Made by a program: the position numbers and the translations under genes
Shown: positions 19,518 through 42,500 of the stretch, one piece after another
How the letters are laid out: the number at the start of each line of letters is the position of its first letter
Position numbering within the stretch: position 1 is the first letter of the stretch
Notes under the pieces: model-generated
Database searches by the model: none
What the model was told of the DNA's origin: nothing
The model's input: only the letters and a program-made list of their open reading frames with translations
From: Candidatus Schekmanbacteria bacterium
GTDB taxonomy: Bacteria > Schekmanbacteria > GWA2-38-11 > J061
Reading direction: 5' to 3'
Assembly (NCBI GenBank): GCA_016219965.1
Contig: JACRJM010000017.1
Span: forward strand, 1 to 42,500
Length of the DNA stretch: 42,500 bases

Positions 19518-19581
19518 AAATCAGGAAAATCAGCAGAAGCACAGGTAAGCAGTAAAACGAAGTAAAATGTGGAGAGGAAAA

Positions 19582-22500
19582 ATGAAGAAAAAATGGTTGG
19601 GGATTTTAGTTTTATTTTGTTTCGTAACAGCATTTTCATGGGGAATTGGGAATAGGGTTTCCGCCCAAACAACCCAAATGGACAGCAAGGATAGCAGTGA
19701 CATTATAACAAGGATGCAAAACAGGACAACAGCAGCGCAGAGGAAAGCTGCTGCAGAACGTGCCGCAGAAGCACGTGCCGCAGCCGAGAAGAGTACACAG
19801 GATACAACAACTGTAAAGAAAAGCAACAAGAACAAGAAGTCAAAAAAAGGGAAGAAGAATAATAAGAGCGCAAAGATTGGAGTCCCCGGTGTAATGGATC
19901 CCGGTGGTACACCGGATTATTTCGGTATTTACCCGAATTACGCCAATAGTCCATTACCTACGGTAGATCCGGTTACAGGAGCGGTTTCAGGCGGAATCAG
20001 GAAGTTCGTAGATTCACTCCCCGGACTTGGTGCAGCTAATGCAAACAATCTTGGTCAGTATATCCCTGTCGCTATTCCTGATACAACAACATATCCGGGC
20101 TCAGATTATTATGAAATAGAATTAGTCGAGTACGCCGAGAAATTGCATTCTGACCTGCCCGCCACTAAACTTCGTGGTTACAGACAAACTAACACAACAG
20201 ATGCAACGGTGAGCGTGCCCCATTATCTGGGACCTCTGATAATAGCCCAGAAAGACAGACCGACACGTATTAAGTTCACCAATAGCCTTCCTATAGGCAG
20301 CGCAGGAAATCTTTTCATTCCTGTTGACACAACCGTAATGGGTGCCGGTATGGGTCCTGATGGAGCCAATTATACAGAAAACCGCGGCACCCTTCATTTA
20401 CATGGCGGATTGACTCCATGGATAAGCGATGGGACTCCTCATCAGTGGACTGTTCCTGCAGGAGAGTCAACAACACTTCCCACTGGTGTAAGCACTCAAA
20501 ACGTTCCTGACATGCCTGTCCCATCCGGCGGGTCTATAACTTTCTATTATCCGAATCAGCAGAGCGCAAGATTGATGTTCTACCATGACCATGCTTATGG
20601 AATAACCCGTCTCAATGTTTATGCAGGCGAGGCGGCAGGTTATCTGTTACAGGACACAACCGAGCAAAGTCTCGTTTCAACCGGTATAATACCTGCTGAC
20701 CAGATTCCTCTTGTTATTCAGGATAAGACTTTCGTACCGGACACTGCTCAACTCGCCCAACAGGATCCAACATGGGATATAGCCAAGTATGGTGGTAAGG
20801 GCAATCTCTGGTTTCCTCATGTATATATGCCTAACCAGAATCCATATGACATGTCCGGCGCAAATGCTATGGGCAGATGGGATTATGGTCCATTGTTCTG
20901 GCCTGTTTTCAGCATGATAACAAATGGTCCTGTACCTAATCCGCTTTTTGGCACTGATCCGGTTGAGCCTCCGGAAAATCCGGGAACACCTAATCCGTCC
21001 CTTGTACCTGAAGCCTTCATGGATACACCGGTTGTTAACGGTACAGTTTATCCAACAGTAACAGTGCAGCCAAAGTCATACAGGTTAAGAATTCTTAATG
21101 CATGCAATGACAGATTCCTTAACCTCCAGCTTTACACAGCGGATCCGCTTGTTACGACTGCTGATGGCAGGACTAACACAGAAGTCAAGATGGTTAATGC
21201 ATTCCCTGGTACGGGCTTACCTGCAACCTGGCCAACGGATGCAAGGGATGGCGGCGTACCGGATCCAACAACTGCTGGTCCGGATATGATTCAGATAGCC
21301 ACTGAAGGCGGTTTTCTTCCGGCACCGGTAGTAATACCTGCCCAGCCGGTCAACTATAACTATAACCGTAGAGACATCGTTGTCCTCAATGTATCAGACC
21401 ATGCTCTCTATATGGGTCCGGCAGAGCGGGCAGATGTCGTCGTTGATTTTTCCGCATTTGCAGGAAAAACACTGATTCTTTATAACGATGCCCCTGCGCC
21501 TGTTCCTGCATTTGACCCGAGAATCGACTACTACACTGGCGATCCGGATCAAACTGACACAGGCGGCGCACCGACAACGCTGGCTGGCTACGGTCCTAAC
21601 ACACGCACCATTATGCAGATAAATGTTGCAGCAGCAACTCCTGCGGCGCCATTTAATATCACCAACCTGAATAATGCCTTTGCATCAACTGCCACAACGG
21701 AGGGCGTATTCGCATCGTCTCAGGACCCGATCATAGTGCCTCAGGCTGCTTACAACTCAGCCTACAATACGACTGTCGTTGACCATATGGGAACATCCTG
21801 CGGAAGGATTCAGGACACTTCCATGAGCGTTACTCCATTGGGCTCTACCACCCCATTGTTGATTCAGTTCATGCCAAAGGCTATACAAGAGCTCTTTGAG
21901 ATGGAATACGGAAGAATGAATGCCACACTGGGAGTTGAGCTGCCATTTACCAATTCAACTAACCAGACAACAATCCCCTTAGGTTATGTAGATCCTACTA
22001 CCGAGACACTTGCAGACTCCATAACACCTCTCGCACCTGCGGCTGGTGATGGAACTCAGATCTGGAAGATTACACATAACGGCGTTGACACCCATGCGAT
22101 ACACTTTCATCTGTTTAATGTGCAAGTTATAAATCGCGTTGGATGGGACGGCGCTATAAGGCTTCCTGATGCGAATGAACTTGGATGGAAAGAAACAGTC
22201 AAGATGAACCCATTGGAAGATATCATAGTTGCCATGAGACCGGTTGCTCCTCAACTTCCATTCGGAATTCCCGAGAGCGTACGCCCCATGGATGTTACAA
22301 AACCGGTGGATGGCGTCACAAGCTGGCCAAGTATAGACGCGATTACCGGATTCCCAACTACAGTTGTTAATGATTATGTGAACTTTGGCTGGGAATACGT
22401 ATGGCACTGCCATCTTCTGGGGCATGAAGAAAATGACATGATGCGTCCAATAGCTTTTAACGTTGTGGTTAATGTACCAAACAAGGTAACCAGCCTGACA

Positions 22501-23562
22501 GGCTCAGGAGTATTAACAGGGATCGAACTGACATGGAAAGATCCTACACCAGCAGCTTCAGCGAGTACATTAGGCAATCCACAAAATGAGATCGGCTTCA
22601 GGATTGAGCGGGCAAACATTGGTGGAGCTTATGCATTTGTTGGAAATGCCCCTGCGAATTCAACTTCATTTATTGACACTACACTTACTGGCGCAGGTAA
22701 TTACTCGTATCGTGTTACAGTATTCAATGCTGCAGGTGACTCCCTGCCGGTGACTGTAACAGCATCGACAATGATCATTACAACAAGTAGTCCATTGCCG
22801 ACTGTGGTTATTGGAACGCCCTACAGCCAGACACTGGGTGCTACAAATGGTACCGCGCCGTACACATGGTCTAAAACTTCCGGCTCACTGCCGACTGGAC
22901 TAACCATGACCAGCGGTGGTCTCATCTCTGGTACGCCGACTACAACCGGGAACTTCACGTTCACAGTTCAGGTCGCTGATGCAGGCGGACTCATTGCAAC
23001 AAAGTCTTTGACAATCTCGGTTATTAATCCGCCTATCATTACCACGGGCACTTTACCGGGTGCAACTGTAGGAAAAGCTTACAATTATACCGTAAAGGCA
23101 AAAAGCGGTGTCCCACCGTACACCTCATGGACTATAACAGGTGGTGCGTTGCCTGATGGACTAAGCTTAACCATGACCGCAACCGGCGGCAACATAAAGG
23201 GTACCCCTGCAGTACCGGGAACCTTTAACTTTACTATACAGGTTACAGACAGCGATGGAAACAGCGGAAGTAAAAACCTGTCTATCACAGTAGGAGTAGC
23301 ACCGTTTTCGATAACAACATCCACTTTAAGTAATCCAACCAGTGGTAAAGCTTACTCAACCACTATAAAAGCAACCGGCGGGGTTAAGCCATATACATGG
23401 TCGGTAATTTCCGGCTCACTGCCGGCTGGTCTTTCTTTGAGCACCGACGGAGTTATAAGCGGTACTCCTACAGTAAAGGGTACATTTAACTTTACTGTAC
23501 AGGTTGCAGATGGATATGGGACAGCACCTGTCAGCAAGGCAATGAAACTGACTGTAAAATAA
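19582..23562 (+). CDS. Secreted multicopper oxidase with C-terminal FN3 and Ig-like (He_PIG) repeats, OmpB-like
   Basis: I place the start at the ATG at 19582 because GGAGAGG lies 4 nt upstream of it; an ATG at 19567 precedes that motif. Residue numbers below count from 19567. A Sec signal (KKKWLGILVLFCFVTAFSW... VSA) is followed by an Ala/Arg helix and a Lys/Asn-rich stretch (about 53-103). Copper motifs: HLH 277-279, HDH 340-342, HAIHFH 843-848, and HCHLLGHEENDMM 947-959 with type 1 ligands His947, Cys948, His953 and Met958. All four sites are complete. The last motif is close to CotA (HCHILEHEDYDMM). An FN3-like segment (about 970-1065) and three about 90-aa He_PIG/Ig-like repeats (about 1068-1331) complete it. 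Size and layout recall Geobacter OmpB, a surface protein needed for growth on Fe(III) oxide. Oxidation of metals or phenolics outside the cell is plausible; the substrate is unproven. Confidence 0.9.
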   Translation: MKKKWLGILVLFCFVTAFSWGIGNRVSAQTTQMDSKDSSDIITRMQNRTTAAQRKAAAERAAEARAAAEKSTQDTTTVKKSNKNKKSKKGKKNNKSAKIGVPGVMDPGGTPDYFGIYPNYANSPLPTVDPVTGAVSGGIRKFVDSLPGLGAANANNLGQYIPVAIPDTTTYPGSDYYEIELVEYAEKLHSDLPATKLRGYRQTNTTDATVSVPHYLGPLIIAQKDRPTRIKFTNSLPIGSAGNLFIPVDTTVMGAGMGPDGANYTENRGTLHLHGGLTPWISDGTPHQWTVPAGESTTLPTGVSTQNVPDMPVPSGGSITFYYPNQQSARLMFYHDHAYGITRLNVYAGEAAGYLLQDTTEQSLVSTGIIPADQIPLVIQDKTFVPDTAQLAQQDPTWDIAKYGGKGNLWFPHVYMPNQNPYDMSGANAMGRWDYGPLFWPVFSMITNGPVPNPLFGTDPVEPPENPGTPNPSLVPEAFMDTPVVNGTVYPTVTVQPKSYRLRILNACNDRFLNLQLYTADPLVTTADGRTNTEVKMVNAFPGTGLPATWPTDARDGGVPDPTTAGPDMIQIATEGGFLPAPVVIPAQPVNYNYNRRDIVVLNVSDHALYMGPAERADVVVDFSAFAGKTLILYNDAPAPVPAFDPRIDYYTGDPDQTDTGGAPTTLAGYGPNTRTIMQINVAAATPAAPFNITNLNNAFASTATTEGVFASSQDPIIVPQAAYNSAYNTTVVDHMGTSCGRIQDTSMSVTPLGSTTPLLIQFMPKAIQELFEMEYGRMNATLGVELPFTNSTNQTTIPLGYVDPTTETLADSITPLAPAAGDGTQIWKITHNGVDTHAIHFHLFNVQVINRVGWDGAIRLPDANELGWKETVKMNPLEDIIVAMRPVAPQLPFGIPESVRPMDVTKPVDGVTSWPSIDAITGFPTTVVNDYVNFGWEYVWHCHLLGHEENDMMRPIAFNVVVNVPNKVTSLTGSGVLTGIELTWKDPTPAASASTLGNPQNEIGFRIERANIGGAYAFVGNAPANSTSFIDTTLTGAGNYSYRVTVFNAAGDSLPVTVTASTMIITTSSPLPTVVIGTPYSQTLGATNGTAPYTWSKTSGSLPTGLTMTSGGLISGTPTTTGNFTFTVQVADAGGLIATKSLTISVINPPIITTGTLPGATVGKAYNYTVKAKSGVPPYTSWTITGGALPDGLSLTMTATGGNIKGTPAVPGTFNFTIQVTDSDGNSGSKNLSITVGVAPFSITTSTLSNPTSGKAYSTTIKATGGVKPYTWSVISGSLPAGLSLSTDGVISGTPTVKGTFNFTVQVADGYGTAPVSKAMKLTVK

Positions 23563-34253: not shown

Positions 34254-34748
34254 TTATGGGCCTATATGTGTAGCCCTCAGTATATCTTCTTTATCCATCC
34301 ATTCAGGAAAACGTTTTATTGCTTTAAGTTCCTCTTCAAGGGATATCTGATGTCCCTTTTCAAAGCCAGAAAGATATTCAAACATAAATCTTCCACTTTG
34401 GTCTTTAAAAAGCTTTGCATTTTCACGGTAAAATTTTGCCGCCTCTTTTTCCTTGCTTATCGCGAACCTGATAAGCTTTTCAATACCTAACTTATTTAGT
34501 TCAGCAATCTTCCCAGAGTAAAAAGCAGTCTTCATTCTTTGCGGATTTTCTCCAGTTTCTCTACTATAAATATCCGTAAGAAGTTTCGCGTGATGAGACT
34601 CCTCTCTTGCAAGTTCTATTATTTTACGCTTCACTAAAGGGTTTTTTATTTTTCCGCTCATATGTTTGTAAAGAAGGGATGCCTCCCTTTCCCTGTTTAT
34701 TGCCAGCCCCAAAGCCTCAACTGATGTTAACCTTTTATTCAACTTCAA
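34254..34748 (-). CDS. Ferritin-like diiron protein of the rubrerythrin group, without rubredoxin domain
   Basis: A 164-aa four-helix protein. The diiron pattern appears twice: Glu22 with an ExxH in REESHH (49-53), and Glu102 with ExxH at 130-133 (EKGH). This is a full set for a di-iron centre. No rubredoxin-like Cys motif follows, but a separate 36-aa rubredoxin-like protein is encoded just upstream in the same direction. The start is a TTG (34748) with TTGGAG upstream. A role in peroxide reduction or iron handling is likely from family. The next gene, 37 nt on, is the E1 alpha subunit. Confidence 0.8.
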   Translation of the reverse strand: MKLNKRLTSVEALGLAINREREASLLYKHMSGKIKNPLVKRKIIELAREESHHAKLLTDIYSRETGENPQRMKTAFYSGKIAELNKLGIEKLIRFAISKEKEAAKFYRENAKLFKDQSGRFMFEYLSGFEKGHQISLEEELKAIKRFPEWMDKEDILRATHIGP

Positions 34749-34782
34749 TAAAAAACTCCAAAATTGACTATGTTTTAAATCG

Positions 34783-34893
34783 TTAACTTACTTCCACAAA
34801 CTTTTCTTTTGGAGCCCCGCATCTGGGACACACATCAGGAGGCGTATCGCCTATGTGTACATATCCGCAAACACTACACTTCCACTTTTTCAA
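34783..34893 (-). CDS. 36-aa stand-alone rubredoxin-like protein
   Basis: Short gene found by reading the gap. Starting from TTG at 34893 (GGAGAAG upstream; no ATG or GTG exists after the in-frame stop at 34914-34912), the product begins [15 protein letters not shown] and continues with [13 protein letters not shown]. Two CxxC knuckles (Cys5/Cys8 and Cys20/Cys23) form a one-iron rubredoxin site. The match is closest to the C-terminal rubredoxin domain of rubrerythrin, here as a separate protein. It would carry electrons to the nearby ferritin-like diiron proteins. It starts 22 nt after the ferredoxin stop. Confidence 0.82.
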
Positions 34894-34914
34894 AAAATCT
34901 TCTCCGCTCTTCTA

Positions 34915-35106
<192 letters not shown>

Positions 35107-35112
35107 TTAATG

Positions 35113-35352
35113 TTAGAGATTTTTTAAATGCTCAGCTTCCAAACGTTTTTCATATTCTTTAAGAAGTTCTTCCAGATCTTTTTTATGCTCCAGTTCAACA
35201 GCAGCAAGGGATCTAAAAAGATTATTCAACTCTTCAAAGTGTTCAGCCTTAGATTTGTTGAGATAATAAACTGCCGACTCCTCTTCTCTCGAAACAGCAT
35301 CCTTGATTACTTCAATCATCACCCGAAGCTTTTTTACATCTTCTAATCCCAT
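35113..35352 (-). CDS. Half-length ferritin-like protein with one diiron half-site
   Basis: A 79-aa, two-helix protein. Helix 1 carries Glu24/Glu25 in SREEESAVYYL, and helix 2 carries ExxH (Glu53, His56) in VELEHKK, the standard rubrerythrin ligand pattern but only once. A functional di-iron site would need a dimer, as in encapsulated-ferritin-like proteins, or pairing with another ferritin-like chain. The C-terminal helix is highly charged (about 57-79). No encapsulin gene is in the window. The gene sits between the NrnA-type gene and the ferredoxin gene. Confidence 0.72.
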   Translation of the reverse strand: MGLEDVKKLRVMIEVIKDAVSREEESAVYYLNKSKAEHFEELNNLFRSLAAVELEHKKDLEELLKEYEKRLEAEHLKNL

Positions 35353-35393
35353 GAGTGCACTTTCTTTCTAATTAAAGTTTACTGTGGCTTATA

Positions 35394-36410
35394 TTATAAA
35401 TTTGCACTCCTGAAACATGTACCGAAATCCAGAGATGAACATTCAAGATCAGCCAGCAAAGAGGAAACAACTTTTTCCTCTACCATTTCAATATTTCCTG
35501 ACATAAGGATGCCTGCTGCATGAGAATGTCCTCCACCATTAAACTTAATTGCAAATCTGTTGACATCAAAACTATTCTTTGAGCGAAGACTTATTTTAAC
35601 CAACCCTTCTTTTTGTTCAAGAAATAAAAGATATACCTGTACACTTCCAATAAACCCCAGAAGATCAATAAATCCCTCTGTTTCCTCATATTTTACACCG
35701 GCAGATTCAAGCATGGCAAGAGTTACTCCCGACCATACAACTCTCCCTTCACAAGCTGAATTTAATCTCTCCAGTACTTTCCCCAACAGTTTCATCCTGT
35801 TGACACTTTTTTGTTCATAGATTTTTTCATAAATGATTGGGGGACAAACTCCAGACTCAATCAGTTGTGCAGCTATCCTGTGTACAGAAGGGGTGGTATT
35901 TGAATATTTAAAAGCACCTGTATCAGTCAAAATAGCAGTATATATTCCCACACCCATTACCTCATCAATCTTCAAACCCAGTAGCTCCGCAATTTCATAC
36001 ACGAGTTCCCCTGTCGAACTGGCAGAAGGATTTAAATAATTGAGGTCACCTATGCCTGCATTTGATGGATGATGGTCTATACATATCTTTTTAGCCTGCA
36101 TGTTCCTGAGTGGTTCAGCCATATCCCCAAGTCTTTCCCAGTTGCTTATATCAAGAACAATGAGAGTGTCCGCATCAGGAATTTTATCTCCTTTTTTAAA
36201 AATATTAAATGGTGCATAATCTTCAAGAAAGGAATAATTAGCAGGTACAGGATGAGTATTTAAAATAATTGGAGTTTTATTAAGATATTTTAAAATTCTC
36301 CACATAGCCAGCTCAGACCCCAGCCCATCACCATCAGGATTCATATGAGTAGTGATGATTATTCTTCCGGACTCCTCCAGCAGGTCTTTAAGTTCAAAAT
36401 TCAGCTTCAT
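35394..36410 (-). CDS. DHH/DHHA1 phosphoesterase, NrnA-type
   Basis: The start at 36410 is preferred: GGGTGAT precedes it, and the earlier ATG codons (36437, 36434) add a poorly conserved nine-residue head. The 338-aa protein has HMNPDGDG at 22-29, the strand VLDISN, the DHH motif IDHHPSN near 111-117, and the DHHA1 motif GGGHSHAAG near 292-300. NrnA degrades short RNA oligomers and dephosphorylates pAp, linking RNA turnover and sulfur metabolism. RNA-binding residues cannot be checked here. It lies directly behind the rubrerythrin-like gene (overlap if the first ATG is used). Confidence 0.9.
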   Translation of the reverse strand: MKLNFELKDLLEESGRIIITTHMNPDGDGLGSELAMWRILKYLNKTPIILNTHPVPANYSFLEDYAPFNIFKKGDKIPDADTLIVLDISNWERLGDMAEPLRNMQAKKICIDHHPSNAGIGDLNYLNPSASSTGELVYEIAELLGLKIDEVMGVGIYTAILTDTGAFKYSNTTPSVHRIAAQLIESGVCPPIIYEKIYEQKSVNRMKLLGKVLERLNSACEGRVVWSGVTLAMLESAGVKYEETEGFIDLLGFIGSVQVYLLFLEQKEGLVKISLRSKNSFDVNRFAIKFNGGGHSHAAGILMSGNIEMVEEKVVSSLLADLECSSLDFGTCFRSANL

Positions 36411-36433
36411 CTCATCACCCAAATGAAGACACA

Positions 36434-36961
36434 TCATCCTTCATAAATAGGACGTTCTTTTTTAGAGAACCAATCTGAGGGATTGGTGAGATATTCATAT
36501 GTTTCTTCAAGAATTCTGTAATGCTCTGACTCTTCAGAGCATAGCTGTTGATAAAATTTTTTCTCATATTCGCTGTCAGCCTTCTTTTCCTGCTTTTCAT
36601 AGAACTTATAACCATCAGTTTCCAATTTCATTGCTAACTTTATTGCCTTAGTGTCATCAGAATCAACTTCCTCATTCTTTTTAATCTTTTTTTCAGCTTT
36701 TTTAAATATTGTTTCAAAATTTACAGGCATATATTTTGCAATTTTGTCCGGAAGTGGAGCTTCACCCCAGCTTTTCCCTTTTTCAAGGGAATCCCAAATC
36801 TTTTTTATTCTCTTAATATGGTTTTGCTCCTCTTTTGCCAAAGAATCGAAGATAACCCTGCCGAGTCTGTTTTTACAGTTTTTAGCAGACTTCTTGTAAA
36901 ACTCAAAACCATCTATTTCAGTTTGATAAGCTATTTTCAAAGCATCGATTTTTCTTTTCAT
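36434..36961 (-). CDS. Rubrerythrin-like diiron protein without rubredoxin domain
   Basis: A 175-aa protein with a complete four-helix diiron pattern: Glu15 (TEIDGFEFY), Glu45 and His48 (EEQNH), Glu114 (LETDGYKFY) and Glu144/His147 (EESEH). The two halves repeat the motif ExDGxxFY ... EExxH, so the internal duplication is visible. It lacks the C-terminal rubredoxin domain of classical rubrerythrin. It lies 21 nt downstream of an FAD/NAD oxidoreductase with a GGAAG ribosome-binding site. Peroxide reduction fed by that reductase through the small rubredoxin is a reasonable model. Confidence 0.85.
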   Translation of the reverse strand: MKRKIDALKIAYQTEIDGFEFYKKSAKNCKNRLGRVIFDSLAKEEQNHIKRIKKIWDSLEKGKSWGEAPLPDKIAKYMPVNFETIFKKAEKKIKKNEEVDSDDTKAIKLAMKLETDGYKFYEKQEKKADSEYEKKFYQQLCSEESEHYRILEETYEYLTNPSDWFSKKERPIYEG

Positions 36962-36982
36962 AGTCTTCCATCCTATAAGTTT

Positions 36983-37978
36983 TTACCAGCGGTCAAGAAG
37001 CTTTTTCCCCATAAGCCTGTTAAAAAACTTTTCATCATCTGAAATGAATGAGACCCCTTCACCAAGAATATTTCTTGCACATATCTCACCCTGCAGCCAT
37101 GCGCTGCTCCATCCAAAATTATTCCGGTTTATTTTCCTGTTTATATCATATACCTGAGCAACATCACCGGCAGCAAATATATTCGAAACAGACGTACGCA
37201 ATTCTTCATTCACAACTATTCCACGATCCAGCTTAATATTGCTTTCACTGAGGAAATTAATGTTTGGATTATAAGAGTATGCTGAAATCACCATGTTGCA
37301 TTCTATTTCTTCATCATTGCTGGTAATGACAGAGTAGTTATCCGCATCAATTGCAAAAATGTCAGCAATTTTATCTCCAAGCTTAATTTTTACCTTTTCC
37401 TTATCAAACTTTGAAACAATATCTTCATTAGTAATTCCAAGGTAATTCCCGCGCCAGAGATCATTTTCAGAAGTAAGATATATAACTTCAAGACCACACT
37501 TCTTTAATCCACGCACCATTTCAATGCCAATATATCCGGTACCGGCAACAATAACCTTTTTTGAGACCAAGGCCTTTCTTTTGATTTTCATGGCATCGAT
37601 AATTGTGTAGAGAGTGAAAATGTCAGATGAAACATGATGTAAGTTTTCCGGTAATCTTGGCACGGTACCACTCGCAATAACCAGATAATTATATCCAATT
37701 CTTTCACCAGAGGAAAGAATGACAACATTATTTACACTATCCACTTTAACAACACGTTTTCCGGTAATTATTTTGCTTCCTCCGGAATCAAACATATTCT
37801 CCTTTAAAAGATCTTTTTCAGACAAATCCCCTGCAATGAAGTCAACAAGGGTAGGTTTCAAATAGAAAGGATTTTTCTCGCTACAAATCAAAACAGAGTT
37901 ACTACTCTCGTCGTTTTCCTTAAGCGTCTTGGCTGCATTGATTGCAGCCGGTCCCGATCCGACAATTACATAATTCAT
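36983..37978 (-). CDS. NAD(P)H/FAD-dependent oxidoreductase (rubredoxin or ferredoxin reductase-like)
   Basis: A 331-aa pyridine nucleotide oxidoreductase. FAD motif GSGPAAINAA at 8-17, NAD(P) motif GTGYIGIEM in the middle domain (about 166-174), and the second FAD motif IFAAGDVAQ near 273-281. There is no CxxxxC redox disulfide, so it is not a thioredoxin- or lipoamide-type reductase; it resembles NADH:rubredoxin reductases and the FAD halves of nitrite reductases. The family's C-terminal dimerisation domain is absent. It is the first gene of the long co-directional run, with a GAGGG ribosome-binding site, placed before the diiron and rubredoxin genes. Confidence 0.82.
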   Translation of the reverse strand: MNYVIVGSGPAAINAAKTLKENDESSNSVLICSEKNPFYLKPTLVDFIAGDLSEKDLLKENMFDSGGSKIITGKRVVKVDSVNNVVILSSGERIGYNYLVIASGTVPRLPENLHHVSSDIFTLYTIIDAMKIKRKALVSKKVIVAGTGYIGIEMVRGLKKCGLEVIYLTSENDLWRGNYLGITNEDIVSKFDKEKVKIKLGDKIADIFAIDADNYSVITSNDEEIECNMVISAYSYNPNINFLSESNIKLDRGIVVNEELRTSVSNIFAAGDVAQVYDINRKINRNNFGWSSAWLQGEICARNILGEGVSFISDDEKFFNRLMGKKLLDRW

Positions 37979-38051
37979 AATCTTTCCCTCTCTCCTCTCT
38001 CATTATTCTTATAAATATCAAGATTAACTTCGCTAAAATAAATATATCTCA

Positions 38052-39569
38052 TCAATTGTTATCTTTCGCAAAGAGTGATAAGAATTTTACAAATAGCCTA
38101 ATCCCGCTCCCTGAAGCGCCTCTCGCAAGATAGTCATGTTTCTTCTCTATCCAAGCTGTACCGGCTATATCAAGGTGCACCCACGGAACTTCGTCTACAA
38201 ATTGTTTTAAAAACATAGCCCCTGCAATAGTGCCTGCCGACCCGTCTCCTATGTTCTTAATATCTGCAACATCGCTTTTAATATCATCAAAGTAATCATC
38301 CCACACCGGAAGTTCCCATACGCGTTCATGTGTATTATTTCCGGCTTCATTGAGAAGTTTTTTCAATTTTTCGTTGTTACTCATCATTCCCATTGCATGA
38401 GAACCAAGCGCTATAACGCAGGCACCTGTCAATGTGGCAATATCAATAATTGCTGAAGGTTTAAAACGTAAGGCATATGTCAAACAATCAGCCAAAATAA
38501 GCCTACCCTCTGCATCCGTATTCTGTATTTCGATTGTCTTCCCCGACAGAGACTTCACAATATCACCCGGCTTTGTGGCTTTTCCGTCAGGAAGATTTTC
38601 AGTTGCAGGAATAATCCCAACCACACGCACAGGAAGCTTTAATCTTGCCACTGCAGCAATAGTCCCTATCACTGCAGCTCCACCAGCCATGTCATATTTC
38701 ATCTTATGCATATCTTTCGCAGGTTTAAGAGAAATACCACCGCTGTCAAAAGTCACACCCTTACCCACAAGTGCAACAGTCTTAAGTTTCCTCATTGCAG
38801 TTGGATTATATTCCAGGATTATTATCTTTGCAGGTTCACTGCTGCCCTTAGTAACTGATAGGAATGATCCCATACCTTTTTTTTTGGCTTCATCAGCTGT
38901 AATAATTTTACATTTTATTCTTGGAATTGATGAGGCTATAAATTTTGCTTTGTTCGCAATAATTGTAGGTGTCATATGATTAGCAGGCGATGATATGAGC
39001 TCTCTTGCCATATTAACCTGTTCACATACGCTTACTGCATCTGATATCCCTTTCTGATAATTTTTTATATTTTTTGCTTCTGTAATTGCCAAAGTTATTT
39101 CAGATATCGAATTCTCAGGCTTTGAAGATGTTTGTAATGTATATGAAAAAGATGAAAGAATTAGTCCCTCAGCTATGGATTCGCCTATTTCGTATTCACT
39201 GACACTCTTAAAATGTTCAGATATTATTAAAATTGCAGCAATCTTTATTTTCTTTTCGTTGAGCTCCCGGTATGTGATACCTGACACTCTTCTTAAAAGA
39301 TCAATGTTAAATTTGTTAATGTCACCAAGACCAATAAGAGTAATACCATCAATAGACTTAGACCCTGTAAAATTAACACTTATAGTTTTACCTACTTCAC
39401 CGGTAAAATCTTTTAAGATTTTTGTATTTGAAATACTCTGTGAAAAGAACCTTTCAATTTCGGCAAGCACTGAATCTTTAATTTTAGGTGAATCAAAAAC
39501 AAATGCAACCAGATAGTTTTTTTTAACTCCTTTCCAGTTATTTTTTTTCTGAAAAGTGTTAATCTTCAT
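38052..39569 (-). CDS. pepA: Leucyl aminopeptidase (M17 family)
   Basis: The start at 39569 is preferred because GAGGAG lies 9 nt upstream; a longer frame from 39644 adds a hydrophobic, probably untranslated 25 residues. The 505-aa enzyme has VGKGVTFDSGGISLKP (Lys270, Asp275), KYDMAGGAA (Asp293) and the family signature NTDAEGRL (350-357), which together bind two zinc or manganese ions. It removes N-terminal residues from peptides in the cytoplasm. The N-terminal macro-like domain is normal in length. It lies downstream of the sigma factor, with a 161-nt gap. Confidence 0.94.
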   Translation of the reverse strand: MKINTFQKKNNWKGVKKNYLVAFVFDSPKIKDSVLAEIERFFSQSISNTKILKDFTGEVGKTISVNFTGSKSIDGITLIGLGDINKFNIDLLRRVSGITYRELNEKKIKIAAILIISEHFKSVSEYEIGESIAEGLILSSFSYTLQTSSKPENSISEITLAITEAKNIKNYQKGISDAVSVCEQVNMARELISSPANHMTPTIIANKAKFIASSIPRIKCKIITADEAKKKGMGSFLSVTKGSSEPAKIIILEYNPTAMRKLKTVALVGKGVTFDSGGISLKPAKDMHKMKYDMAGGAAVIGTIAAVARLKLPVRVVGIIPATENLPDGKATKPGDIVKSLSGKTIEIQNTDAEGRLILADCLTYALRFKPSAIIDIATLTGACVIALGSHAMGMMSNNEKLKKLLNEAGNNTHERVWELPVWDDYFDDIKSDVADIKNIGDGSAGTIAGAMFLKQFVDEVPWVHLDIAGTAWIEKKHDYLARGASGSGIRLFVKFLSLFAKDNN

Positions 39570-39730: not shown

Positions 39731-41290
39731 TCAATCATTGAAAAAAAGTTTCAGATCTTTAAGCTTGCTGTTTTTTCTTAGCTTCCTAATTGCCTCCTCT
39801 TCTATCTGCCTAATCCTTTCTCTTGAAAGCTTAAAATCCTCACCTATTTCCTCTAGAGTATGATTTACACCAAAATCAATCCCATATCTCATCCTCAATA
39901 TTTTCTCTTCTCTAGGACTAAGCGTTTTTAATATTTCTCTTAATCTATCTTTCAAAGCATGCTGGGCTGTTTCAAGCTCAGGCGAAGCAGCATCTTGATT
40001 CTCTATTAAATTAACAAGACTTGTTTCATTCTCATCATCTTCTATTGATTCATCAAGAGAAACTGGCTCTTTTTGTATGCGGAGCACACTTCTCACAAAA
40101 TCCTCATCCATCCCAACTTTTTTTGACATCTCAAAAATAGTTGGCCTTCTTTCAAGATCCTGAGACATTGTTTTATAGGCCCATTTAAGCTTGCGTATCT
40201 TATCTACTATATGTACAGGAATCCTGATGGTTTTCCCCTGCGCCATCAATGCTTTCATAATAGTCTGCTGTATCCACCAGTGAGCATAGCTGCAAAATTT
40301 AATACCTCTTTTATAATCATACTTATCAATTGCAGTCATCAAGCCTATATTCCCTTCCTGAACGAGATCCAAAAGCTGCAATCCTCGATTTTGATACTTT
40401 TTTGAAATACTTACAACAAACCGTAAGTTTACTTTGACTAATTTACTTTTAATATCATTATAAGACGTTAAGAAATTTTTTATTGAATCAGAATTTTCTT
40501 TCATTTCCTTTTTGTCGCTAACTGAAAAATACTTAATCAACTTATCAGCTTTTTCCACAGAGCAATAACTTTTTAACATTTCCCTTTTCTTGGATTTATT
40601 AAATTTTAGATTATTTGATATATTGATAACTATTGATTGAGCAATCTTTTCAATCTGAGTAAAATTAAATGGGATCTTTGACAATAGACCAACAATTGAT
40701 TCATGATGTTTTCTTATTGAAGTGGCGAGTATTTTTTTACTTCTGGAAGCTTGTTTTGCTGAGTTATATTTCTCTATACAACTAAGAAGTTTTTTTTCTC
40801 GCTCTTTAATTAAAGATACAACCCCCATAAACATTTCAATTTTAGCTGAAACGTCTGCAAGATATAGCTCATCTAAAGGGTTTACATCAATAATTTCTTT
40901 AATCTTAATTTCCTTTTGTTCCAGCAAATTGGCGAGCTCAATAACTTCTGCAATGGTGATATATGAATTAATAACTAATGACATTATTTGAAACTTTACA
41001 TTTTCAAGTTGTTTGAAACACTCAAATTCTTCCTCTCTTGAAAGATATGTGTGTTCTTTTATGTCTCTGTAATAAGAGTCGAGAGTATCAATCTCACGAA
41101 CTAATTTATCCTGAACCAAATCATAAACATCTTCCTCAACATCTTGTGCGTCAGAAAGTTTTTCCAATTGGGCTGTTACGTCCTTTTCTAAAATCTTATC
41201 TTCAAGATTAAGCTCTAATTCATCCATTGAATCATCTTCTTCAATCAACTCCGTTTCATTTAGATTTATTTCATAAATATTATTAGCCAT
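39731..41290 (-). CDS. Sigma-70 family RNA polymerase sigma factor (RpoD-like, divergent)
   Basis: The start at 41290 is chosen because AAGGA lies 7 nt upstream; a longer frame from 41344 adds a Lys-rich 18 residues. The 519-aa protein has an acidic N-terminus, region 1.2 (DTLDSYYRDIKEHTYLS), a large about 200-residue insertion, region 2 with VVSISKKYQNRGLQLLDL and LVQEGNIGLM, region 3 and region 4 with HTLEEIGEDFKLSRERIRQIEEE. Region 2.4 reads YAHWWIQQTIMKAL where housekeeping RpoD reads YATWWIRQAI, and TIRIPVH is kept. It could be the main sigma factor of this lineage or an alternative group 2 type. An operator-like palindrome lies 70 nt upstream, next to the MerR gene. Confidence 0.9.
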   Translation of the reverse strand: MANNIYEINLNETELIEEDDSMDELELNLEDKILEKDVTAQLEKLSDAQDVEEDVYDLVQDKLVREIDTLDSYYRDIKEHTYLSREEEFECFKQLENVKFQIMSLVINSYITIAEVIELANLLEQKEIKIKEIIDVNPLDELYLADVSAKIEMFMGVVSLIKEREKKLLSCIEKYNSAKQASRSKKILATSIRKHHESIVGLLSKIPFNFTQIEKIAQSIVINISNNLKFNKSKKREMLKSYCSVEKADKLIKYFSVSDKKEMKENSDSIKNFLTSYNDIKSKLVKVNLRFVVSISKKYQNRGLQLLDLVQEGNIGLMTAIDKYDYKRGIKFCSYAHWWIQQTIMKALMAQGKTIRIPVHIVDKIRKLKWAYKTMSQDLERRPTIFEMSKKVGMDEDFVRSVLRIQKEPVSLDESIEDDENETSLVNLIENQDAASPELETAQHALKDRLREILKTLSPREEKILRMRYGIDFGVNHTLEEIGEDFKLSRERIRQIEEEAIRKLRKNSKLKDLKLFFND

Positions 41291-41359: not shown

Positions 41360-41373
41360 TAACGTTAACGTTA
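41360..41373. promoter_or_regulatory. Palindromic operator upstream of the sigma gene
   Basis: TAACGTTAACGTTA is a perfect 14-bp palindrome sharing the 10-bp core ACGTTAACGT with the site in the merR promoter. It lies between the merR stop (17 nt away) and the sigma start. Flanking -35/-10 matches on the minus strand are poor, as expected for a promoter that needs a MerR-type activator. Binding is inferred. Confidence 0.6.
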
Positions 41374-41390
41374 CAAATAATATCTTTTTT

Positions 41391-41846
41391 TTAAATATAA
41401 AATGCTGCATAAAGATATGATAACCCACGCCTTATATCTGTGAAGTTACAATTGTTACATTGCAACACATCAATTTCTTTTTCACATTCAGTACATTCAG
41501 CTATTAATTGCCTTGAAACTTCCAATTCTCTTTTTACTTCATTCAGCTTATTTATCGTTTCAGTAACTTGATTCAACTTTAAGTGAAGTTTCGTATGTAT
41601 TATTAAAGCTGCCTTGCCTCCAATTTTATATTTTCTTCTTGCATTCAAGAGATCTCCAATTTCACAAACACCCATATTCATACTCTTAAGCATTTTAATT
41701 GTTTTAAGTTTTTTGAGGTCATCTTCATTATAGAAACGGAATCCACCTTTTGTTCTTCCTGAAGGAAATAATAGTCCTTCTTCTTCGTAATATCTTACTG
41801 TCCTGATTGTTGTATTTGCTAGCTTTGCAATTTCGCCTATCTTCAT
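41391..41846 (-). CDS. MerR family transcriptional regulator with C-terminal CxxC pairs
   Basis: The start at 41846 is preferred: GGAG lies 9 nt upstream and MKIGEIAKLA is the normal MerR beginning; the frame open to 41945 adds a non-homologous 33 residues. The 151-aa protein has the MerR winged helix-turn-helix (2-70: TTIRTVRYYEEEGLL, GGFRFYNEDDL), a dimer coiled coil (about 85-112), and a Cys cluster Cys118/Cys121 and Cys130/Cys133 (CTECEKE, CNNC). The Cys pairs could bind Zn, Cd or Cu or respond to oxidants. It controls the promoter at 41865-41893, which contains its probable operator, and likely the sigma gene. Confidence 0.92.
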   Translation of the reverse strand: MKIGEIAKLANTTIRTVRYYEEEGLLFPSGRTKGGFRFYNEDDLKKLKTIKMLKSMNMGVCEIGDLLNARRKYKIGGKAALIIHTKLHLKLNQVTETINKLNEVKRELEVSRQLIAECTECEKEIDVLQCNNCNFTDIRRGLSYLYAAFYI

Positions 41847-41864
41847 TTTATTTCTCCTGCCATC

Positions 41865-41893
41865 AAAATATATTACGTTAACGTAATTGTCAA
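41865..41893 (-). promoter_or_regulatory. merR promoter with palindromic operator in its spacer
   Basis: Minus strand: perfect -35 TTGACA (41893-41888), 17-nt spacer, -10 TATTTT (41870-41865). The spacer is almost filled by the 16-bp palindrome ATTACGTTAACGTAAT (41887-41872). Location between -35 and -10 is the classical site of MerR-family operators. The MerR ATG follows 19 nt after the -10, so the protein probably controls its own synthesis. Confidence 0.75.
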
Positions 41894-42113: not shown

Positions 42114-42150
42114 AAAAAAAAGTTCCGCCTAATTTAATAGGCGGAACTTT
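42114..42150 (-). terminator. Rho-independent terminator of the rRNA operon
   Basis: A perfect 12-bp inverted repeat (AAAGTTCCGCCT at 42119-42130 with AGGCGGAACTTT at 42139-42150) and an 8-nt AT loop. Read on the minus strand, a T-run follows. It lies 10 nt after the 5S rRNA end. Confidence 0.9.
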
Positions 42151-42159
42151 ATAAAGAAT

Positions 42160-42271
42160 CCTGGCAGCGACTTACTCTCCCACCTCGAAGGGCAGTACCA
42201 TCAGCGCAGGAGGGCTTAACTTCCGTGTTCGGAATGGTTACGGGTGTTTCCCCTCCGCTATAACTACCAGG
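42160..42271 (-). rRNA. rrf: 5S ribosomal RNA
   Basis: The minus-strand sequence starts CCTGGTAGTTATAGCGG and contains the conserved loop regions CACCCG, CCGAACACGGAAGTTAAGC and TGGGAGAGTA, ending CGCTGCCAGG. The 5' and 3' ends pair (CCTGG/CCAGG). Length is about 112 nt; true ends may extend 2-3 nt. Confidence 0.95.
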
Positions 42272-42317: not shown

Positions 42318-42500
42318 GGTGGCTAAGCCTCACGGCTGATTAGTACTGGTTAGCTAAATCCATTTCTGAACTTACACACCCAGCCTATCAACCTGGTAAT
42401 CTTCCAGGAGCCTTTAGGTATCTTATGATACGGGATATCTTATCTTGAGGCAGGTTTCCCACTTAGATGCTTTCAGCGGTTATCCTTTCCGGACATAGCT
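42318..42500 (-). rRNA. rrl: 23S ribosomal RNA, 3' end (partial)
   Basis: The minus strand reads AAAGGATAACCGCTGAAAGC, then a TAAGTGGGAAACCTGCCTCAAGAT block, and ends CCGTGAGGCTTAGCC, all conserved at the 3' end of bacterial 23S rRNA. It continues beyond the right edge. The spacer to 5S is about 46 nt. Confidence 0.95.

Follow-up and report, generated by a model that had tools for sequence, protein, structure and literature searches.

A four-cysteine MerR-family protein as putative autorepressor of an adjacent alternative sigma-70 gene in Candidatus Schekmanbacteria

Several described systems share some features with the locus considered here. The isc and suf operons for iron-sulfur (Fe-S) cluster assembly are headed by Fe-S-sensing repressors, IscR/RisR of the Rrf2 family (PMC9973013) and SufR (PMC6034842). 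In Streptomyces coelicolor, the MerR-type B12 photosensor LitR promotes transcription of litS, which encodes an ECF sigma factor (PMC12705666). Activation by MerR proteins uses promoters with 19-20-bp spacers, and shortening of the spacer abolishes activation (PMC8113463; PMC9909328). Position 77 of metal-sensing MerR proteins is Cys or Ser, which sets the metal choice, and the cysteines of SoxR are spaced as C119-x2-C122-x-C124-x5-C130 (PMC9909328). MerR-family repressors also exist, as in the case of LiuR (PMC3223726). In the open-licence literature, no description was found of a four-cysteine MerR protein at suf or sigma genes.

The window analysed here is a stretch of 42,500 nucleotides from the uncultured Candidatus Schekmanbacteria. 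Its genome (3.58 Mb) is referred to as G000, and its relatives in the order as G001, the nearest one, G002 and G003, the last being Candidatus Schekmanbacteria bacterium GWA2_38_11 (MGDB01000151.1). At one end of the window, an rrn operon is followed by merR and, about 100 bp past it on the same minus strand, by a sigma gene, with the following features.

39731..41290, minus strand: gene for an alternative sigma-70 factor paralogous to RpoD, about 518 aa when started from ATG 41290 (Pfam Sigma70_r2/r3/r4)
41360..41373, no strand: putative operator 2, 14-bp palindrome TAACGTTAACGTTA, between merR and the sigma gene
41391..41846, minus strand: merR, four-cysteine MerR-family regulator of 151 aa, start ATG 41846 with Shine-Dalgarno AGGAG (Pfam MerR_1, 2.2e-18)
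41448..41495, minus strand: codons of the MerR Cys cluster C118-x2-C121-x8-C130-x2-C133, a presumed metal or Fe-S site
41865..41870, minus strand: -10 element TATTTT of the merR promoter, 17-bp spacer
41872..41887, no strand: putative operator 1, 16-bp perfect palindrome ATTACGTTAACGTAAT in the merR promoter spacer, directly 3' of TTGACA
41888..41893, minus strand: -35 element TTGACA of the merR promoter, kept in 4/4 genomes of the order
42119..42150, minus strand: intrinsic terminator of the preceding rrn operon, past which the merR-sigma unit begins
42159-42271: 5S rRNA (Rfam)
42319-42500: 3' end of 23S rRNA (Rfam)

The longest open reading frame of the sigma gene starts from ATG 41344, and ATG 41290, with a good Shine-Dalgarno sequence, is the likelier start. 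Operator 2 is located 17 bp past the merR stop (41391), 15 bp from ATG 41344 and about 70 bp from ATG 41290.

The original prediction placed one core palindrome both in the spacer of the merR promoter and before the sigma gene, with no other copy in the window. Both copies are confirmed, and the window holds these two against 0.35 expected, none occurring with one mismatch. By simple pattern matching, which underlies all genome-wide counts given here, the core ACGTTAACGT occurs exactly twice in 3.58 Mb, both times at merR-sigma, whereas a reversed-pattern control gives 10 copies; many unrelated copies across the genome, which would speak against a local link, were not found. When up to one mismatch is allowed, the extended form TWACGTWWACGTWA has four matches in G000 (38 for the control), two in G001, both at the merR-sigma locus (control, 43), one in G003, at this locus (control, 23), and one in G002, away from it (control, 37). 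The sites are thus nearly private to the merR-sigma locus in both f1 genomes. The extra one-mismatch sites in G000, at C1:19769 inside a TPR gene and at C7:237734 upstream of a radical-SAM-like gene, have no known counterpart in the relatives and are probably due to chance.

Orthologues of merR are present in all four genomes of the order, and in all of them the sigma gene comes next, with a response regulator gene and a short open reading frame inserted in G003. The pair of sites recurs in G001, and degenerate or shifted versions are found in G002 and G003. Past the merR stop, G000, G001 and G003 have a near-perfect site and G002 a degenerate one. The best motif match in the merR promoters of G002 and G003 is offset into the -35 element. 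In three genomes, the outer arms TWAC-N6-GTWA have their centre 8.5 bp past the -35 element; in G001 this distance is 9.5 bp. The near-unique sites and the recurrence in 4/4 genomes support the earlier suggestion that MerR and the adjacent sigma gene are tied by two sites into one local circuit, as judged from sequence. A search of viral contigs found no relatives there. Downstream of the sigma gene (window 34254-39569; L055, L056 and L057), an M17 aminopeptidase gene is followed by genes for an FAD oxidoreductase and rubrerythrin-like proteins, and a DHH phosphoesterase gene also belongs to this neighbourhood in G000 and G002. It is possible that this is a redox-defence neighbourhood. One long operon, composed of the sigma gene, ferritin/rubrerythrin-like genes, pepA and the FAD oxidoreductase gene, was also considered: these genes follow sigma in 3/4 genomes, the G001 contig ending in pepA. 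In G001, G002 and G003, however, the sigma gene is followed by terminator or hairpin sequences, which argue against such an operon.

The sigma factor had been taken for a major one. G000, however, encodes a separate RpoD of 597 aa in a dnaG-rpoD cluster, to which the merR-linked protein is a divergent paralogue with 39% identity. The latter carries regions 2, 3 and 4 only (Pfam) and falls below the RpoD cut-offs (RpoD_Cterm, 281.6 bits versus 354), unlike a primary sigma factor; with a separate RpoD in the genome and RpoD-like regions 2-4 but no region 1.1, it fits group 2 of the sigma-70 factors. Its orthologues are monophyletic and apart from RpoD, on a long and well-supported branch (100/96). 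With a sigma profile run across 290 genomes, they score about 890 bits, followed by 697 for a second copy in G003 and then by 414 or less for RpoD proteins. This second copy (L091 3374-4915; C18) is an orphan, from which both the MerR neighbour and the palindrome are absent. Region 4.2 of the merR-linked sigma keeps RERIRQIE, and thus a TTGACA-like -35 element is expected for it. Region 2.4 has Q and M at the positions that we take to be equivalent to R436 and T440 of E. coli, for which reason the -10 preference may be shifted.

The regulator has the N-terminal winged helix-turn-helix and the long dimerization helix of the MerR family (Pfam MerR_1 and MerR, both above cut-off), and its 151 aa contain no further Pfam domain. 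The two CxxC pairs read from the sequence at the outset are real (C118, C121, C130 and C133), and an alignment of 12 homologues from several lineages, in which only 11 columns are invariant, has all four Cys among them. In an AlphaFold model (pLDDT 84), a helix spans residues 76-124, and the model is weak after residue 120, leaving the four Cys unplaceable. Foldseek matches are CadR, PbrR, CueR and SoxR, and the best matches from PDB and Foldseek are 5gpe and CadR entries. The window MerR shares its fold and DNA-binding domain with CadR, PbrR, ZntR and CueR, and its helix-turn-helix and dimerization helix resemble those of PbrR, CadR and ZntR, with scores far below the cut-offs of the metal-sensor models. 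It differs from these proteins in the 17-bp promoter spacer and in its putative ligands: instead of Cys or Ser at 77-79 with two loop Cys, it has four C-terminal Cys and a Gly at position 77, which is aligned with a Cys of 5gpe and is the same in 4/4 orthologues. An ordinary metal sensor is therefore not indicated. SoxR is likewise a MerR-family protein with four Cys in the C-terminal loop and a palindromic operator in the promoter spacer, but the Cys spacing of the window protein is C-x2-C-x8-C-x2-C, and it reaches 31.8 bits with the SoxR model, for which the cut-off is 116.9. As in the case of LitR-LitS, a MerR-type protein is predicted to control an adjacent sigma gene, although here the partner is RpoD-like with regions 2, 3 and 4 rather than an ECF factor, the C-terminal domain carries four Cys instead of binding B12, and the control is probably repression. 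In being a MerR-family repressor, the proposed window MerR would be like LiuR. LiuR-like proteins encoded in L105 and L108 are unlike it in that the four Cys are absent and the neighbours are quinone oxidoreductase and thiolase genes. The Cys-free merR of L105 (1455-1910), adjoined by the quinone oxidoreductase gene, has TTAACGTTAACGTCAA sites on both sides, and that of L108/L109 (near 1904), adjoined by the thiolase gene, has a TTACGTTTACGTAA site upstream. These are ACGTnnACGT-like sites flanking LiuR-like merR genes, presumably as in the LiuR motif.

The four-Cys proteins constitute a family with a sharp boundary in profile searches, members scoring at least 182 bits and the next match 111. 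The window MerR belongs to it by its full-length match to the profile, the four invariant Cys and a TAACGTTWACGTAAGGGT-type operator before merR, the GGGT arm of the operator being missing in G000 and G001. In a third phylum (f174, f268 and f269), a four-Cys member is found in 27 of 47 genomes, and an A-type Fe-S assembly gene and/or sufC is directly downstream in 25 of the 26 members with readable neighbours, as called from sequence patterns with a Pfam check on representatives. Here the four-Cys merR heads SUF operons (L132, L133, L165-L188), whose 23 operators have the consensus TAACGTTTACGTAAGGGT; these proteins are apparently an undescribed family of Fe-S operon regulators. In G249, the four-Cys merR is followed by a gene for an IscS-type cysteine desulfurase. 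In a second phylum (f100), five of seven genomes encode a full-length four-Cys MerR, in 5/5 cases with another type of sigma-70 gene (270-315 aa, without the long N-terminal part) immediately downstream. The two genes lie close together, and their single operator precedes merR; the f100 SUF operon, where examined, has an Rrf2-like protein at its head. In a family tree made by a quick method and including some long branches, the sigma-linked groups are in different places, the f100 group being beside the iscS-linked protein and within the SUF-linked set (support 81-93), which suggests that non-orthologous sigma genes were recruited on two separate occasions. A further four-Cys MerR in G094 (L104/L122) has a 20-bp palindrome ATACAGTAACGTTACTGTAT overlapping a 17-bp spacer, and both SUF and sigma neighbours are absent; this protein counts against the reading favoured below. 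The relatives of the window MerR are like IscR/RisR and SufR in that the regulator is beside or at the head of an Fe-S assembly operon, with autorepression and cysteine ligands presumably in common, whereas the window MerR differs in its MerR fold, four C-terminal Cys and operator, and its target in this order would be a sigma factor instead of SUF/ISC.

In place of a leave-one-out motif test within the order, which is weaker than it appears because G000 and G001 are close and the best match in G002 and G003 is offset into the -35 element, a matrix trained only on the 23 SUF operators was applied. Operator 1 ranks first of about 85,000 window positions (12.2 bits), with the next unrelated position at 11.7, a margin of 0.5 bit, and operator 2 ranks seventh (6.9). 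The merR promoter is at the top of the 16-kb G002 locus (20.8; best unrelated, 9.6), both sites are at the top of the 14.7-kb G003 locus, and the gap site is at the top of the G001 contig; merR-sigma sites score highest in L055, L056 and L057. The margin in the window is small, and the operator evidence draws more strength from how the loci agree. A 15-mer, TTAACGTAAGGGTTA, is identical between the G002 merR promoter and one promoter of the second phylum.

Taken together, sequence evidence makes it somewhat probable that MerR is an autorepressor that gates the alternative sigma factor and probably responds to Fe-S, iron or redox status. MerR would bind as a dimer to both palindromes, at its own promoter and ahead of the sigma gene, and would thereby block RNA polymerase to keep merR and sigma low. 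The four C-terminal Cys would hold a cofactor, most likely an Fe-S cluster, and its loss or change upon iron limitation, oxidants or Fe-S demand might free the DNA, whereupon the sigma factor would rise and redirect transcription to its presumed regulon. Operator 2 might serve as a roadblock, in looping with operator 1, or in control of an internal promoter. The sole pointer to an Fe-S-sensing role of the window MerR is the genomic context of its family. SufB/SufD (PF01458) was found in none of G000-G003 by a search that detects it in 14/14 control genomes, and the Fe-S link therefore comes from relatives with 23-27% MerR identity. The SUF/ISC neighbourhoods suggest Fe-S status as the signal, while zinc or thiol chemistry is possible. 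The same autorepressor might use its four Cys for structural or sensory zinc or as thiol switches responding to a metal or a thiol oxidant. CxxC...CxxC is also a common zinc-ribbon pattern, and among curated models and solved structures those of the Zn/Cd/Pb sensors ZntR, CadR and PbrR come closest; the zinc or thiol reading seems rather unlikely, however, as the family's link to SUF/ISC genes in 26 loci speaks for a role in Fe-S homeostasis and the Cys/Ser of metal choice in classical sensors (PMC9909328) is Gly in the window MerR.

The mode of action may be judged from promoter geometry. The merR promoters across the order are TTGACA-16/17-TATWTT with the operator enclosed in 4/4 genomes: the -10 element is TATATT at 17 bp in G002 and G003, TATTTT at 17 bp in G000 and TATTTT at 16 bp in G001. 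Homologues with a recognised promoter have spacers of 16-18 bp, and the 19-20-bp spacer expected for distortion by MerR is not seen. In relatives, the operator is downstream of the -10 element, starting exactly 12 bp after it in 15 SUF loci and at a distance of 4-7 bp in f100 loci, which is a repressor geometry in which the bound protein is expected to hinder polymerase. With the consensus -35 element and the normal 17-bp spacer, bound MerR would most likely block polymerase also in the window. Repression is thus likelier than activation, given the 16-17-bp spacers, the perfect -35 element and the downstream operators of relatives, and repression released by a signal is the most likely mode of the predicted MerR action. 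Against this reading, the operator in Schekmanbacteria is inside the spacer, where MerR activators bind, and its centre 8.5 bp after the -35 element is like that of MerR-family promoters. The original prediction had MerR twist weak promoters open; in such a model, MerR would activate merR and sigma by twisting a suboptimal spacer upon a metal or peroxide signal. This mode is improbable, because shortened MerR spacers lose activation (PMC9909328) and the spacer is 17 bp in three genomes and 16 bp in one, because the operators of homologues are downstream of the -10 element, and because no clear promoter of its own, with a -35/-10 frame around the site, was found at operator 2. Least probable of all is that MerR regulates only itself, with operator 2 a weak secondary site and sigma transcribed for the most part from a promoter of its own. 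In favour of it, the G002 version of operator 2 is degenerate, and weak promoter-like matches occur in the 3' end of merR, though these are no more numerous in the region than in shuffles; a terminator (G001) or hairpins (G002/G003) follow the sigma gene. Against it, the pair recurs in 4/4 genomes and, with another sigma, in 5/5, and in the second phylum the two close neighbours have their single operator upstream of merR.

If the autorepressor reading is extended to the family, an undescribed group of MerR-type Fe-S sensors, apart from Rrf2 proteins and SufR, might control Fe-S assembly operons in one phylum and have been recruited separately to two non-orthologous sigma-70 genes in two others, where Fe-S or redox status would directly set the level of an alternative sigma factor; we regard this broader proposal as tentative. 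If true, it would add a MerR-fold solution to the control of Fe-S homeostasis, hitherto assigned to Rrf2 proteins and SufR, and a one-component coupling of an Fe-S signal to a sigma-70 factor that is free of an anti-sigma factor. It also provides a candidate function for a sigma factor that is specific to a lineage of an experimentally unstudied candidate phylum, and the locality of the operators allows the regulator and its targets to be tested in vitro from sequence alone, the host being without culture. Elsewhere in the window, positions 19567-23562 encode a secreted protein of 1331 aa, which by eye is multicopper oxidase-like with Ig-like repeats.
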